Below are positions 1,527 through 59,014 of a stretch of 64,000 nt of DNA, piece by piece (within the stretch, counting starts at the first letter, position 1; every line of letters starts with the position of its first letter). The notes beneath the pieces are model-generated. The model worked only from the letters and a program-made list of their open reading frames with translations. It did not search any database and had not been told where the DNA came from. This stretch comes from Chloroflexota bacterium. Lineage in GTDB: Bacteria; Chloroflexota; Chloroflexia; Chloroflexales; Roseiflexaceae. The stretch spans positions 1-64,000 of the forward strand of contig JACAEQ010000135.1 of the NCBI GenBank assembly GCA_013388755.1. Reading direction: 5' to 3'. Made by a program: the position numbers and the translations under genes.

Positions 1527-1554
1527 AGGTTACGTCTCTTCCGTGTACGTTCGA

Positions 1555-1687
1555 CTTTGTCATTGCGCGGAGCGTGAGCGACCACCTGCAGCGAGCGCAG
1601 CGTGGCTGAAGCACTCTCCGCTCGCGCCGCTCGATCGCTTCGCTGCGCGTGCAATGACATCGAACCATCCGTTATTCGGATAGGCAC
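1555..1687. repeat. Palindromic MITE-like repeat, copy A
   Basis: This lies between selD and the RDD gene. It contains the shared core cattgcgcggagcgtgag, ctgcagcgagcgcagcg, gccgctcgatcgcttcg and gcgtgcaatgacat, and ends with attcggataggca, the right terminal repeat of the family. The left terminal repeat is degenerate and may extend to about 1521, close to the selD start codon. Confidence 0.7.
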
Positions 1688-6251: not shown

Positions 6252-6331
6252 GCACGCCTCCATCCAGGCTGAGTGGCCGAGTCGTGCATATCATACAGTG
6301 ATTGCCTCGCAAAGTGTGAACGGTTTCCTTA

Positions 6332-6489
6332 GAGCCTGTCCGAAAACCAGATGGTCCATGTCATGGCGAGCGCGAGCGAAGCAAGCTCCTCGCGCGCCGC
6401 TCGATTGCTTCAGCCACGCTTCGCTCGCTGCAGGCGGTCGCTGGCGCTCCTCGCAATGACAGCCTGCCCATGGGTTTTCGGACAGGCTC
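6332..6489. mobile_element. MITE with terminal inverted repeats, copy B
   Basis: This is a complete non-coding element of 158 bp. The left end GAGCCTGTCCGAAAACC and right end GGTTTTCGGACAGGCTC are perfect inverted repeats. It is flanked by TTA on both sides (6329-6331 and 6490-6492), which reads as a 3 bp target duplication. The interior is also palindromic (gcgagcgaagcaag, cgctcgattgcttcag, ttcgctcgctgcagg). There is no coding capacity; presumably it was moved by a transposase encoded elsewhere. The ends and TNA-type target are reminiscent of IS5-group elements, but that assignment is a guess. The right TTA is also the TAA stop codon of the VanW-like gene. Confidence 0.85.
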
Positions 6490-7164
6490 TTAGCGTACTT
6501 CCAGGGCGCGCACGACAATCTGATCGGGCGCAGGGCCTTCAACGACGTGGAGCTGGAGCGTGGCGGCGTGTGTATTGGTGATCTGCAGATCCTGCCGCCC
6601 GCCGAACGACCCCGCCTGGCCGTCAATGTTCCAGATCGCGACGGCATCCTCATCAGCGACGTTCAGTAACCCGATACCGGCGGTTTGCACGTGATTAGGA
6701 AACGCGAATGCCGATGGTGGCAGTACCGGTCGCAGCGCCTGGACATAGCGGCTGGCCAGGTCGCACCAGCCACCACCGGGGATGCCGGCCACCACGCGCA
6801 CACGGACCCGGGTGGGTGCACCGACGCTGGCATTGAAGCTCCACGTGTCGCCAGGGTTGATGATGACGCTGCGCAGTGCGCCGCCATTGGCGTCAAGTGC
6901 GGCGCGTATGTTGTAGCCAGCGTCGCCGTGCAGACTCAATGGCGCACTTTCGCCAATCAACCGGTATTTCTGGCCAGATTGCTGCGTGAACGTTGCCGTG
7001 AGCGACTCGGATCCGGCGAATGCTGGCGATGGCCCGCCGCTCTGCTGCAATGGCATGCCGAAGAGCGTGTGCGGTATGGCTGCCTGGTGTTCATGGTAGA
7101 GAATGACCAGGCTGATGGCCAGGACCAGCCAGAGGCCGGGCGGGCAGCGGAACAACGTAATCAT
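6490..7164 (-). CDS. VanW-like domain protein, membrane-anchored
   Basis: This is a 224-residue protein. Residues 8-25 (LWLVLAISLVILYHEH region) form an N-terminal membrane anchor or signal. From about residue 85 it carries a VanW-like pattern: SVIINPGDTWSFNASVG, then GGGWCDLASRYVQALRPV (family consensus GGGxCQxSTxLY), then a C-terminal beta region ending with RQDLQITNT. VanW domains are widespread in Gram-positive and Chloroflexota envelopes and their function is not settled; the conserved Cys is kept. The stop codon TAA coincides with the target duplication of MITE copy B, so the gene end was preserved when the element inserted. It is transcribed divergently from the SH3-domain gene, with a good promoter at 7199-7227. 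Confidence 0.75.
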   Translation of the reverse strand: MITLFRCPPGLWLVLAISLVILYHEHQAAIPHTLFGMPLQQSGGPSPAFAGSESLTATFTQQSGQKYRLIGESAPLSLHGDAGYNIRAALDANGGALRSVIINPGDTWSFNASVGAPTRVRVRVVAGIPGGGWCDLASRYVQALRPVLPPSAFAFPNHVQTAGIGLLNVADEDAVAIWNIDGQAGSFGGRQDLQITNTHAATLQLHVVEGPAPDQIVVRALEVR

Positions 7165-14022: not shown

Positions 14023-14062
14023 GGCCATCCTCCGGTGTTGTACGAGTGCACGTTGCTCTACA

Positions 14063-14206
14063 TGCCTATTCGAATAACGCTACGCCGCCTGTCAGTGCGC
14101 GGAGTGGGCGTGACTGCCTGCAGCGAGCGCAGCCTGGCTGCAGCACGCGCCGCTCGATTGCGTCGCTTCGTGCGCAATGCCATCCAGTCCGCTATTCGCA
14201 TAGGCA
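14063..14206. repeat. MITE-like repeat, copy C
   Basis: The left end TGCCTATTCGAATAACG and right end gctattcgcataggca are inverted repeats, with the family core between (ctgcagcgagcgcagcctgg, cgccgctcgattgcgtcg). It lies between two sugar-locus genes. The base after its right end begins the TAG stop codon (14209-14207) of the upstream Gfo/Idh/MocA gene. Confidence 0.8.
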
Positions 14207-15370
14207 CTAATACTCCGGCGCGACCCACTGCTTGCTCCCGGCAGACTTCTCCACCGCATCCAGAATGGCCTGGCAGCGCACGCCATCCTCGAACGTCGGC
14301 GCAGGTGATACCCCGGCGGCGATACCATTCAGCAGATCATAGATACCGTGAGTGAAGGTATGTTCCCAGCCAATGATATGGCCGGCGGGCCACCAGGCGC
14401 TGAGGTATTTGTGGGTGCCGCCATTGGTGACCAGGACATTACGGAAGCCGGCAACATCGGGCATGTCGTCGTCGAGCAGCACATCGAGCTCATTCATACG
14501 CTCGAGATTGAAGCGCAGACTGCCTTTACTGCCATTGATCTCGAAGCTATTGTAGTTGGCGCGGCCCTTGGCAAAACGCGTGACCTCGAACGTCCCGACG
14601 GCGCCGCTGGCAAAGCGCGCCAGGAAGAGCGCCGCATCGTCCACCGTCACCTCACCCATCTCCGCGCCGGCGGCCGCACCGAGGCCACCGGTCGTGCTGG
14701 CCAGCACCGGGCGGCGCTTGATGAACGTTTCGGTCAGACCGGTGACCTCAGTGATTTCGCCGATCAGCATACGCGCCAGGTCAATAATATGCGCGCCGAG
14801 ATCACCGAGTGTCCCCGCGCCAGCCACATCCTTCTGCAATCGCCAGACCAGCGGGAAGTTCGGGTCCATGATCCAGTCTTGCAGGTAGACGGCGCGCCAG
14901 TGGTAAATCGTTCCCAGCCGTCCGGAGTCGATCAACGTTTTAGCCAGTTGCACCGCGGGCACGCGGCGGTAATTGAAATTCACCATCCCGACGACATGAT
15001 TGCGCTGGACGGCGTCAAGCATCTGCCTCGCTTCGGCCAGTGTATTGGCCAGTGGCTTCTCACAGAACACGTGCTTGCCGTTTTCGGCGGCGGCGATACT
15101 GATGGCTGCGTGCGTATCGCCAGGGGTAGATACGTCGATCAGCCCGATGTCATCGCGCGCGACAAGCTTCCGCCAGTCGGTTTCAAACCCTTCCCAGCCA
15201 AACTGCGCTGCAGCGGCCGCGACCGCGGCCTCATCACGGCCACAGATCGCGCGCATCACGGGGCGACGTGCAACATCGGGAAAGAACGAAGCAACCTGGC
15301 GATAGCCGTTCGAATGCGACTTGCCCATGAACTTGTACCCGACCAGGCCGACGCCGATAGTGGTTGACAT
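14207..15370 (-). CDS. Gfo/Idh/MocA family oxidoreductase
   Basis: This is a 387-residue NAD(P)-dependent sugar or inositol dehydrogenase-type protein. The N-terminal Rossmann domain reads GVGLVGYKFMGKSHSNGY, and the cofactor/active-site Lys is in the family motif HVFCEKPLANTLAEA. The second half holds LGDLGAHIIDLARMLIGE, whose Asp/His are the usual catalytic pair, and a beta-sheet substrate domain. The start at 15370 has GGAGGAG eight bases upstream; an earlier ATG overlaps this site. The stop codon abuts MITE copy C. Together with the SDRs and TIM-barrel proteins it suggests an oxidative route for a sugar or cyclitol. Confidence 0.87.
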   Translation of the reverse strand: MSTTIGVGLVGYKFMGKSHSNGYRQVASFFPDVARRPVMRAICGRDEAAVAAAAAQFGWEGFETDWRKLVARDDIGLIDVSTPGDTHAAISIAAAENGKHVFCEKPLANTLAEARQMLDAVQRNHVVGMVNFNYRRVPAVQLAKTLIDSGRLGTIYHWRAVYLQDWIMDPNFPLVWRLQKDVAGAGTLGDLGAHIIDLARMLIGEITEVTGLTETFIKRRPVLASTTGGLGAAAGAEMGEVTVDDAALFLARFASGAVGTFEVTRFAKGRANYNSFEINGSKGSLRFNLERMNELDVLLDDDMPDVAGFRNVLVTNGGTHKYLSAWWPAGHIIGWEHTFTHGIYDLLNGIAAGVSPAPTFEDGVRCQAILDAVEKSAGSKQWVAPEY

Positions 15371-30976: not shown

Positions 30977-31130
30977 GAGCATCTCCGAATGACGGATGGT
31001 TGGATGTCATTGCGAGCGAAGCGAAGCAATCTCTTACACCGAGATTGCTTCAGCCACGCTTCGCTCGCTGCAGGCTGTCGCTCGCGCTCCTCGCAATGAA
31101 CGAGCGGCGTACAGTTTTTCGGATAGGCTC
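30977..31130. repeat. MITE-like repeat, copy D (inverted orientation)
   Basis: The left end GAGCATCTCCGAATGACGG matches the right arm of other copies, and the right end tttttcggataggctc is the standard terminal repeat. The core contains cattgcgagcgaagcgaagc, gattgcttcagccacgc and ttcgctcgctgcaggctg. It occupies most of the 337 bp space between the alpha-2-macroglobulin gene and the anti-sigma gene, which converge on it. No coding region is seen there. Confidence 0.8.
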
Positions 31131-31180: not shown

Positions 31181-32197
31181 TTATGGTTCCTCCTCGCGCT
31201 CGCTGCCGGAGCTGCGGTCGTCATCCCCATTGTCGTCGCGGTTGTCGTTGCGGTCGTCATCCCCATTGTCGTTGCGATTGTCGTCGCGGTTATCGTTGCG
31301 GTTGTCGTCGCGGTTCTCATCCGGTTGTTCGGGGGTTTGAACAGGCGCTGCGGTTGCCGGAACACGCGTTGGTCGTGGCGACGGGATTGCCCGTGGCGTT
31401 ATCGTCGGCGTAGGAGGAGGGGTCGCCGTCGGTTGTGGCGTGAACGTCGCGGTCGGCGTCACTGTGGCAGTGGGAGGTTGCGTTGGCGTCCTGGTTGGTA
31501 CAGGGGTCGCGGTGCTGGTTGGCGCGGGTGCGCTCGCCGGGTCAACGAGAATCTGCGATGCGGTGACACCCGCCGGGCCGGTACGGCCGGTAACGCGCGC
31601 CTTAGCGCCCGGAATCGCCGGTCCAGCGACGCGCGTCTCGCCAGTCACAAAGATGCGCACGCCGGCAATACGCCAGGTGTTGGTTGCGACCTCCTCGACC
31701 GTGCCGTCGAATGTCACCTCGGTCGTGCGACGGGCGCTAATCAGCCGGTTGACTTCGTCGCGGCGGCGCGCTTCAAAGCGCTGGACGAGGGCCGTGTCTT
31801 GCGCCGTCGTCGCCAGTTGTATGTTTTCAATGGCGCGTTTGACGCCATAGAGCGCATCGCCCGGGAGGCTATCGCCGGATGCTGCAACCGTGCCGGCACC
31901 AATGCCGATCAGCGTCAGCAGCACCATTGCCAGGCCCAGCGCCAGGCGCGTGGATAACCAGTGCCAGCGCCGGGCCAGCTGCATCTCACGGGCAGCCGTC
32001 AGGAAGCGACGCCGCGAGCGCGCCTGCGCCGCGGCTGCTACCGGCGGGCGAATCGTGCGCAGGGCGATGGCCGTTTCGAGGATTGGCCGAAGTTGTGCTG
32101 CATCACGAGGATGGCGTTCCAGGATGCTCTCAAGCGCCTCTCCAGCATCGAGCGCATCAAGGCAGGCGATCAGCGTTTGTTCAAACTGCGTATCCAT
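31181..32197 (-). CDS. Anti-sigma-type membrane protein (DUF5667/DUF5666-like)
   Basis: This is a 338-residue protein. A cytoplasmic N-terminus (about 1-80) includes a DAGEALESILERHP segment. One membrane helix (ALGLAMVLLTLIGIGAGTV, about 87-105) is followed by SGDSLPGDALYGVKRAIENI, the DUF5667 signature. Next comes a beta-rich DUF5666-like domain (TFDGTVEEVATNTWRIAG, TGETRVAG, ARVTGRTGPAGVTASQIL), a Pro/Thr-rich stalk, and an Asp/Asn/Arg repeat tail. It starts 47 bp after the ECF sigma factor gene on the same strand, so it is the likely membrane-spanning regulator of that sigma factor. Confidence 0.8.
   Translation of the reverse strand: MDTQFEQTLIACLDALDAGEALESILERHPRDAAQLRPILETAIALRTIRPPVAAAAQARSRRRFLTAAREMQLARRWHWLSTRLALGLAMVLLTLIGIGAGTVAASGDSLPGDALYGVKRAIENIQLATTAQDTALVQRFEARRRDEVNRLISARRTTEVTFDGTVEEVATNTWRIAGVRIFVTGETRVAGPAIPGAKARVTGRTGPAGVTASQILVDPASAPAPTSTATPVPTRTPTQPPTATVTPTATFTPQPTATPPPTPTITPRAIPSPRPTRVPATAAPVQTPEQPDENRDDNRNDNRDDNRNDNGDDDRNDNRDDNGDDDRSSGSEREEEP
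31215..31322 (-). repeat. In-frame minisatellite encoding DNRDDNRND repeats
   Basis: Near-identical 12 bp units (gttgtcgttgcg / gttgtcgtcgcg on the plus strand) and gtcgtcatccccatt variants repeat within the 3' end of the anti-sigma gene. They encode an alternating acidic/amide tail of DNRND, DNRDD and DNGDD units. The repeat length is a multiple of three, so copy-number change would lengthen or shorten the tail without breaking the frame. Confidence 0.75.
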
Positions 32198-39714: not shown

Positions 39715-39805
39715 AATCAGCGGACTCCTCGATGCTACGCACCTTGCCGCGGTATTCTAACGTCTTTCAACCGCAGCGTCAAGGTTCGAGTGCCGCCATA
39801 CCTGG

Positions 39806-39956
39806 TGCCTATCCGAAAAACGATACGCATCGTATCATTGCGAAGAGTGTGAGCGACAGCCTGCAGCGAGCGAAGCGAAGCAATCTCCTCTCGCGCCGCT
39901 CGATTGCTTCGCTTCGCTCGCAATGACATCCAACCATCTGGTATTCGGACAGGCTC
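39806..39956. repeat. MITE-like repeat, copy E
   Basis: The left end is TGCCTATCCGAAAAACG and the right end is attcggacaggctc, with the family core between them (ctgcagcgagcgaagcgaag, cgctcgattgcttcgcttcg). It fills the space between fabG and the Asp23-like gene. The first base of the right terminal repeat is the G of the fabG stop codon TAG (39958-39956). Confidence 0.85.
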
Positions 39957-45888: not shown

Positions 45889-45918
45889 GTGCTACCTCCT
45901 GCCCACGAGGGTATGAAG

Positions 45919-46020
45919 TGCCTCTCCGAAAACCGCTCCGCCTGTCGTTGCGCGGAGCGCCAGCGACCGCAGCATAACTGACGCAATCGCGGCGTGTGAT
46001 CCGGAGATTGAGTTGTGTCG
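45919..46020. repeat. MITE-like repeat, copy G (left part only)
   Basis: It begins TGCCTCTCCGAAAACCGC and follows the same sequence as copy H for about 110 bp (attgagt, gtgtc, cgtgca). It then runs into a G/C-rich block instead of completing its right end. Together with copy H it forms a direct repeat 224 bp apart. Confidence 0.75.
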
Positions 46021-46125
46021 CGTGCACCGCCCCGCCCCCCGCCCAACCTCCCCCTGCCGGGGTGAAGAGCCAGACTCCCGCCCCCAGCGGGGGCGGGCCG
46101 GGGTGGGGGCGGCGGGCTTCTTCGC
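46016..46125. repeat. GC-rich dispersed repeat, diverged copy 3
   Basis: The block ccgccccgccccccgccc, then agactcccgcccccagcggg and ggccggggtgggggcgg, matches the centre of the element at 52321-52447 (cgactcctccccccagcggg). It sits between the two copies of the MITE direct repeat, as though inserted in one of them. The terminal AT-richer tail seen in the other copies is missing. Confidence 0.65.
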
Positions 46126-46142
46126 AACGTAGAAGCGTTCTC

Positions 46143-46285
46143 TGCCTCTCCGAAAACCGCTCCGCCTGTCATTGCGCGGAGCGCCAGCGACCGCAGCATA
46201 ACTGACGCAATCGCGGCGTGTGATCCGGAGATTGAGTCGCGTCACGTGCAACGCCATCCAGCCATCCGTTCTTCGGATAGGCTCT
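46143..46285. repeat. MITE-like repeat, copy H
   Basis: This is a full copy: left end TGCCTCTCCGAAAACCGC, right end cttcggataggctc, then TA. The first 110 bp are almost identical to copy G, so a local tandem duplication is likely. Together the repeats occupy most of the 578 bp between phoU and the DegT gene. The remainder, 46286-46466, holds no clear gene. Confidence 0.8.
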
Positions 46286-52306: not shown

Positions 52307-52448
52307 GTGCACTACCTTTAACAAACGCCCGTCACCCCCACCCCGGCCCCCCCCCGCCGGGGGAGGGAGTCCGACTCCTCCCCCCAGCGGGGGGAGGTCG
52401 GGTGGGGGGCTGTGCGGTGCAGAACGCCTTATTTGAAAGGTATTGGCT
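52307..52448. repeat. GC-rich dispersed repeat, complete copy 2
   Basis: The left end (gtgcactacctttaac, aaacgccc) and the reverse complement of the right end (ccaatacctttcaaataagg) form an imperfect inverted repeat. Between them lie long C and G runs forming palindromes (ccccccccgccgggggaggg, ctccccccagcggggggagg). It starts at the base after the fmdB stop codon and ends before the DUF3592 gene. Partial copies are at 88-180 and 46016-46125. No coding capacity. Confidence 0.75.
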
Positions 52449-52466
52449 CTAAGTCAGGTGTCGCCA

Positions 52467-58861: not shown

Positions 58862-59014
58862 AGTGCCTATCCGAAAAACGATACGCTCAGTGTGAGGAGC
58901 GCGAGCGACAGCATGCAGCAAGCAAGGCGTCGCTGAAACATTTCGTATCGCGCCGCTCGATTGCTTTACTACGCTCGCTCTGACATCCAACCATCCGTTC
59001 TGCGGATAGGCAGT
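58862..59014. repeat. MITE-like repeat, copy F, in the prs leader
   Basis: The left end is AGTGCCTATCCGAAAAACG and the right end is gttctgcggataggcagt, with a family core more diverged than in other copies (agcgacagcatgcagcaagc, ccgctcgattgctttactac). It ends 29 bases before the prs start codon, so it lies between the putative promoter and the ribosome site. Confidence 0.8.

Follow-up and report, generated by a model that had tools for sequence, protein, structure and literature searches.

The stretch of DNA analyzed here, 64,000 nt of a Chloroflexota genome and called the window below, contains eight copies of a family of miniature transposons (MITEs). One of them, singled out as copy B in a preliminary description of this DNA and named copy 2 here, abuts an ORF so closely that its right target duplication doubles as the stop codon of that ORF. 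The copies, the parts of copy 2, and one unoccupied copy of a second repeat are as follows.

6332..6489, + strand: MITE copy 2, 158 bp, a member of the 158-bp subfamily with perfect 17-bp terminal inverted repeats (TIRs) GAGCCTGTCCGAAAACC.
6329..6331, no strand: left target duplication of copy 2, TTA.
6490..6492: right target duplication of copy 2, TTA, doubling as the TAA stop codon (- strand) of ORF 6490-7164.
6359..6386, + strand: TGTC-tagged REP-like unit 1 of copy 2, TGTCATGGCGAG..GCAAGC, with TGTCATTGCGAG..GCAATC as its counterpart in other copies.
6403..6461, - strand: opposed REP-like unit 2 of copy 2, GATTGC...CTCGCAATGACA.
1543..1687, - strand: MITE copy 1, left terminal repeat unrecognizable, right end GTGCCTATCCGAATA on the - strand.
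14062..14207, - strand: MITE copy 3, diverged, single in clustering, flanks TAC/TAA.
30977..31130, + strand: MITE copy 4, in an older 12-member cluster, flanks TTT/TTT.
39805..39956, - strand: MITE copy 5, in the same older 12-member cluster, flanks CTG/TAA.
45918..46030, - strand: MITE copy 6, truncated, 96% identical to copy 7 across 113 nt.
46142..46284, - strand: MITE copy 7, diverged, single in clustering, flanks TCT/TAT.
58863..59013, - strand: MITE copy 8, diverged, single in clustering, flanks ACA/TAA.
52363..52445, + strand: unoccupied copy of a GC-rich repeat, matching the joined flanks of the MITE insertion at L078 18742-18876.

The eight-copy family of the preliminary description is real. 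Within the window, nhmmer profile searches recovered all eight at the positions it had given, and the end motif was matched 11 times against 1.07 expected, a number reached by 0 of 100 shuffles. The perfect 17-bp terminal repeats of copy B and the TTA on both of its flanks were confirmed at 6332-6489. More general statements hold in part. Terminal repeats are conserved in the family, but copy 1 has no recognizable left end and copy 6 is truncated. The TTA duplication is a property of the family genome-wide, where 42 of 88 end-paired copies have TTA or TAA, but within the window copy 2 alone retains it; copy 4 has TTT/TTT, and in the remaining copies the flanks differ or are lost. Copy 2 had also been considered recently mobile; its duplication is intact, but 10 of its 158 bases deviate from the consensus of its subfamily, which was drawn from 30 copies. 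Seven 133-bp copies elsewhere have just 2 to 5 changes apiece. The window also contains a 12-base tandem repeat (GTCGTCGCGGTT-like) at 31184-31327, within ORF 31181-32197 (- strand).

Profile searches covering 464 kb, made up of the window and twenty sampled stretches of 20 kb each from this genome, found 31 copies, counted after nhmmer hits were merged by hand, with the fragments L080 1-37 and L079 19715-19757 excluded and two half-elements in L084 counted separately. Extrapolation gives ∼340 copies per genome, a rough figure because the twenty stretches were taken from contigs already known to carry copies. The 5.08-Mb genome contains 248 exact matches to the end motif and 129 to the end together with the REP foot; the reversed pattern gave 0 in both cases. 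A genome-wide search for the terminal repeat, the check proposed in the preliminary description, yielded 527 matches with two mismatches allowed, versus 29 for the reversed pattern. The examined DNA of this genome contained 155 nonredundant hits (E values up to 1e−6, fragments included), of which 88 were end-paired and at least 110 bp long; 52 of these had a length of 158 bp and 7 a length of 133 bp, and the remainder had other lengths. These 88 fell into clusters of 58, 12 (the older cluster, including 30977 and 39805), 10 (shortened, 133-bp type), and 2, plus six single copies that include 14062, 46142, and 58863 in the window. Identical 3-bp flanks were found at 48 of the 88 (TTA at 25, TAA at 17, others at 6). 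The MITE query had no match in plasmid and phage DNA, and none of 399 other sampled genomes of the phylum had the pattern of end plus core. Three scans of viral contigs were uninformative, since the pattern and its reversed control both gave zero.

Two MITE insertions with TTA duplications sit within copies of another repeat family, which is GC rich and palindromic (...GTGCGGTGCAGAACGCCTTATTTGAAAGGTATTGG) and serves as a landing site for MITEs. Twenty-three copies of this family were aligned in the examined DNA, and in the window it is found at 113-185, 46035-46110, and 52312-52451. The MITE plus one TTA was taken out of each insertion, and the joined flanks were aligned to unoccupied copies of the repeat. 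For the insertion at L067 14889-15046, the joined flanks match window positions 52331-52446; those of the L078 insertion match the unoccupied copy listed above. The alignments shown were free of gaps within 10 bases of the junction in 5/5 cases for L078, where the empty copies contain just one TTA at that point, and in 4/5 cases for L067, where the empty copies have TTG or TCG, not TTA. The repeats are short, noncoding, bounded by TIRs, flanked by target duplications, and represented by empty sites within the genome, all of which support the MITE identity proposed beforehand. They are true miniature transposons that encode no enzyme, and they form a high-copy family. A MITE as such is ordinary; what was unexpected is the pair of REP-like hairpins inside it, a putative module.

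Genes in the window and the sampled stretches were called with a purpose-written, codon-usage-based gene caller. None of the 31 copies lies within a gene: 16 are in tandem gaps, 10 in convergent gaps, 4 in divergent gaps, and 1 at an edge, and 6 run into the end of a gene by no more than 8 bases. Of all TTA/TAA sites, 2192/2852 are coding, and genic insertions have presumably been removed by selection. Convergent gaps look favored, with 10 of 30 placed copies compared to 49/324 gaps and 7721/54029 intergenic bases. Targeting of stop codons was considered and rejected, as the duplications overlap a stop codon in 6/27 cases (copy 2 included) versus a background of 94/660, which is no clear enrichment.

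The 158-bp subfamily has a peculiar pattern of substitution. Among 47 copies from this genome, A/C or G/T accounts for 23 of the 29 shared allele pairs; another repeat family has 3/9 shared pairs of this kind. When the ancestral state was guessed by the analyst, A:T to C:G changes made up 364/500 changes outside the outer 13 bp versus 7/69 in the ends, and only 2/22 changes in the 133-bp subfamily. The signature was seen in the interior of the 158-bp elements and not in the ends, the 133-bp subfamily, or the other repeat family. Sequencing error is an unlikely source, because the 133-bp subfamily shares the same contexts without the signature. Four-gamete pairs amount to 78 to 91% beyond 3 bp, close to the permuted level. 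Some distant sites are associated (14 and 27, P = 2e−5; 90 and 105, P = 0.001). At a number of neighboring site pairs, the two changes never occur together in one copy (e.g., 59/61, 0 versus 5.5 expected).

The preliminary description had attributed the movement of these elements to a transposase acting in trans. The exact end pattern was found in 12 of 60 genomes, the present one included. Pairs of ends 909 to 912 bp apart occur eight times in G026 and six times in G047 (same order) and once in G035, and G012 has one pair ∼918 bp apart. All five insertion sequence (IS) loci examined from G026, G047, and G035 have TTA/TAA duplications. The IS is coded in two frames whose overlap falls on a stretch of G and A; its products match Pfam DUF4096 and DDE_Tnp_1, and NCBIfam transpos_IS5_3 is matched by the second frame above the cutoff and by the first frame below it. 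A close transposase is encoded in 5/60 genomes, namely, G026 (the source of the query), G047 (78%), G035 (79%), G012 (77%), and G003 (73%, interrupted by internal stops), all of which also possess the ends. The other 7 of the 12 end-bearing genomes, including the present one with its 248 ends, gave no close transposase match. Also observed in G003 (L041, L042, and L043) were ∼77-bp MITEs with IS-like ends, several of them in tandem arrays with a period of ∼260 bp.

The sequence GAGCCTATCCGAA is common to the MITE ends and the ISs of G026 and G047, and five plasmid ISs are similar. Relatives of the transposase were found in 602 plasmid records, the best being an ISAzo38-family element at 63%. 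All five of the relatives examined (H1, H2, H4, H7, and H11; 48 to 63%) are flanked by duplications of TTA or TAA, and their ends are of the kind GAGCCTATCCCGAT or GAACCTATCTCAAT. Judging from these sequence matches, the predicted partner class is that of IS5-family, IS427-like elements of ∼910 bp, which were found in relatives only. The draft assembly of the genome itself gave 0 transposase matches and has no DUF4096, and no autonomous copy was found in it. Two sets of candidate partners in this assembly were rejected: DDE_Tnp_1 had four hits (on contigs C13 and C74 and two on C8), and the fetched loci were without matching ends; DDE_Tnp_4 had one hit (C74), at which matching ends were not seen. 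At the C74 locus (L032 743-1680), two overlapping frames encode a transposase that combines HTH_Tnp_4-like and DDE_Tnp_4 parts; the locus has no MITE ends, and we take this hit to be an ISL2/HARBI1-like element. A partner acting in trans, as proposed beforehand, is probable to the extent that ISs with matching ends exist in relatives. The preliminary description had also named the lack of any element with matching ends in the genome as one half of what would count against it, and for this assembly that half literally applies. We weigh the matching IS of the relatives above its absence from this assembly and judge the interpretation to be supported.

The MITE core reads TGTCATTGCGAG...GCAATC...GATTGC...CTCGCAATGACA and is a head-to-head hairpin pair with a TGTC foot on each hairpin. 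The foot is present on both units in aligned copies, and the dimer is in the consensus of every main cluster here. What had been described beforehand as a palindromic core looks, from its sequence, like a pair of REP-like hairpins. According to a published survey (PMC3733652), CGTC REPs have a CGTC or TGTC tag and a stem starting with AT, occur mainly as head-to-head dimers and mainly between genes, are known from five phyla, and have no dedicated transposase and mostly diverse flanks. The core appears to follow the plan of this superfamily, with an incomplete fit in stem length and tail. The ATTGC/GCAAT stem has 5 perfect pairs with mismatches beyond, compared to a stem of 8 to 9 bp and a loop of 4 to 5 in the CGTC REP plan; the ATTCCCGC type of Caldithrix has 8 stem pairs and a longer loop. 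A CCA-type tail was not found, as the ATTGCGAG-type copies seen continue after GCAAT with CTC or CCC. At the IS loci, the core TGTCATTGCGAG was not found inside the IS with two mismatches allowed. The predicted fold of −86.9 kcal/mol (z = −5.5) was equaled by 0/200 shuffles, and a fold this strong makes an RNA or cruciform role possible. The partner pairs tested for compensatory pairing in the core gave no association.

A scan for end plus core in one genome per species, covering 84,980 species and possibly leaving out the present genome, returned 11 stretches from eight MAGs. One Caldithrix MAG supplied four of these stretches; the other MAGs belong to Calditrichaeota, KSB1, and Sedimentisphaerales, and four have no phylum name. 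The second end was recognized in L057, L058, and L064 and is degenerate in others, and L061 has one end and one foot only. The eight MAGs gave no transposase match, but this set lacked a positive genome, so the empty answer shows nothing. In three MAGs, the pattern TGTCATTSCSRSN{4,30}SAATC had 149, 228, and 391 matches versus 0 for the reversed pattern. Forty places of the ATTGCGAG type in the Caldithrix MAG were picked by hand among 100 listed of the 228 matches, with the TGTCATTCCCG type excluded and with one locus (L232) that had already been examined. A head-to-head dimer was found at 36 of these 40 places. Thirty-five of the 36 dimers are bounded on both sides by ends of type T1 (GAGTCTGTCCGAAAA) or T2 (GTATCCGCTCAAT) and one by neither, while shuffled flanks gave a both-sided match in 1/7200 per end type. 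T1 ends enclose 28 dimers; their 6-bp duplication is perfect in 18, agrees at five of six positions in 5, and agrees at four or fewer in 5. T2 ends enclose 7 dimers, with an 8-bp duplication that is exact in 5 and seven of eight bases in 2. T1 ends resemble the ends of the Chloroflexota family, but because their duplications are 6 bp, they may be served by a different transposase. Two further Caldithrix elements (L058 5242-5359 and L218 1284-1401) have T1 ends around a different core (GTAGGACAAATTG...), which indicates that T1 ends are not bound to the REP core.

Twenty places in the KSB1 MAG (G062) gave 23 feet, of which 11 have T1-like ends, 6 have TATACTCGTTAAGGGTTA-type ends, and 6 lie in two further repeated flanks recognized by eye; these ends are mostly readable on one side only because a contig end cuts 18/20 loci. 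Contigs of this MAG often break within these elements, which points to many copies and to sequence lost from the assembly around them. Other KSB1 elements, with ends GAGCCTATCCGAAAACC, were examined at 13 loci, several of which bear the other hairpin type, TGTCATTCCCG; both ends are present at 10/13, and 6 of those 10 have TTA/TAA duplications. In the third REP-rich MAG (G064), a T1-like match was found on one side in 3 of the 8 loci shown and on both sides in none. A fourth end pattern (T4) guessed from these loci was rejected, as no pair was obtained. Different ends are thus found around the same hairpin pair, on both sides in one genome (Caldithrix) and on one side in another (KSB1), and the occurrence of one hairpin pair in MITEs that differ in ends and duplication lengths is our reason for reading it as a portable module. 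A case is on record in H. neapolitanus, in which all CGTC-1 dimers lie within 41-bp palindromes, interpreted in the survey as REPs inside palindromes (PMC3733652). By analogy, this looks like the same arrangement as REP dimers in MITEs. Among the titles and abstracts that surfaced in part of the open-licence literature, none described CGTC REP dimers as MITE cores.

We consider it very probable that the repeats are nonautonomous miniature transposons of the IS5 family (IS427-like), mobilized in trans, with a REP-dimer core as a portable module. Acting in trans, an IS427/ISAzo38-type DDE transposase would recognize the GAGCCTRTCCGAA ends and insert the unit at TTA/TAA, with three bases duplicated. 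The autonomous element would have been lost or never assembled here. The TGTC-tagged REP hairpin pair would ride as a portable module in MITEs of several transposase families, and the removal of insertions inside genes would leave the intergenic copies, 6/31 of which abut a stop codon.

The likeness of the core between phyla might instead reflect convergence on any stable hairpin rather than one portable module, and the variation of inner stems and loops from genome to genome is in keeping with this. However, TGTCATTGCGAG and GCAATC are identical letter by letter in several phyla, the hairpin pattern gave its 149, 228, and 391 matches in three MAGs versus 0 when reversed, and two end types of one genome enclose the same core, which makes convergence unlikely. 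We give a somewhat smaller chance to the idea that the hairpins are retained for a host function (as a 3′-end stabilizer, terminator, or gyrase site) and that their transposon origin is long past. The strong fold (z = −5.5, 0/200 shuffles) and the 10/31 copies in convergent gaps speak for such a function, but the 42/88 intact duplications and the little-changed 133-bp copies suggest fairly recent movement, and stop-codon overlap (6/27 versus 94/660) is not clearly enriched. A host function is in any case compatible with trans-mobilized MITEs.

Least probable of all, in our view, is that the units are REPIN-like REP dimers moved by the tyrosine transposase RAYT and that the outer inverted repeats are incidental. 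REPINs are paired inverted REP hairpins that form a mobile unit with RAYT transposases and are reportedly miniature mobile DNA; the core here is likewise made of head-to-head TGTC-tagged hairpins that resemble CGTC REPs, and the G064 dimers have no established outer ends. Against this, the outer repeats mark where the copies stop, next to TTA/TAA duplications of 3 bp, and where the empty sites begin, and 35/36 Caldithrix dimers lie inside outer ends, most of them with 6- or 8-bp duplications. In the published survey, moreover, no adjacent transposase was reported for CGTC repeats (PMC3733652).

Beyond the trans-mobilized MITEs of this genome, TGTC/CGTC REP dimers in general may not be free-standing but a portable core that spreads between phyla inside MITEs served by several transposase families unrelated to one another. 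We advance this tentatively and lean slightly against it. If true, it would answer the question of what moves CGTC REPs, as ordinary transposases would account for their spread, and the hairpin pair would be of use to whichever MITE contains it. The question would then become why MITEs with different ends retain one hairpin pair.

Among known systems, REPINs with RAYT are alike in that inverted REP hairpins move as a pair, but they are not known to have outer TIRs with target duplications, and they have another tag and another class of enzyme. ISs of the IS427 group (IS5 family), including ISAzo38-like elements, share the GAGCCTATCC-like ends and the 3-bp TTA/TAA duplication, and the autonomous relatives have two overlapping ORFs, but the core of the MITE is absent from the IS. 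The limits of the IS427 group are loose, because duplication lengths differ among published members: 2-bp duplications are reported for most Paracoccus members and 4 bp for one (PMC3281130), while ISLxx6 has a three-base duplication and is assigned to IS427 yet has IS1031 features (PMC2516522). Chunjie (Geobacter) and Nezha (cyanobacteria) are likewise bacterial MITEs; Chunjie is present in dozens of intergenic copies according to a review (PMC10969869). The CGTC-tagged REPs (Di Nocera et al. 2013) are like the core in their tag, AT stem start, dimers, and intergenic sites; their published flanks are mostly diverse, whereas the dimers here are bounded by MITE ends.
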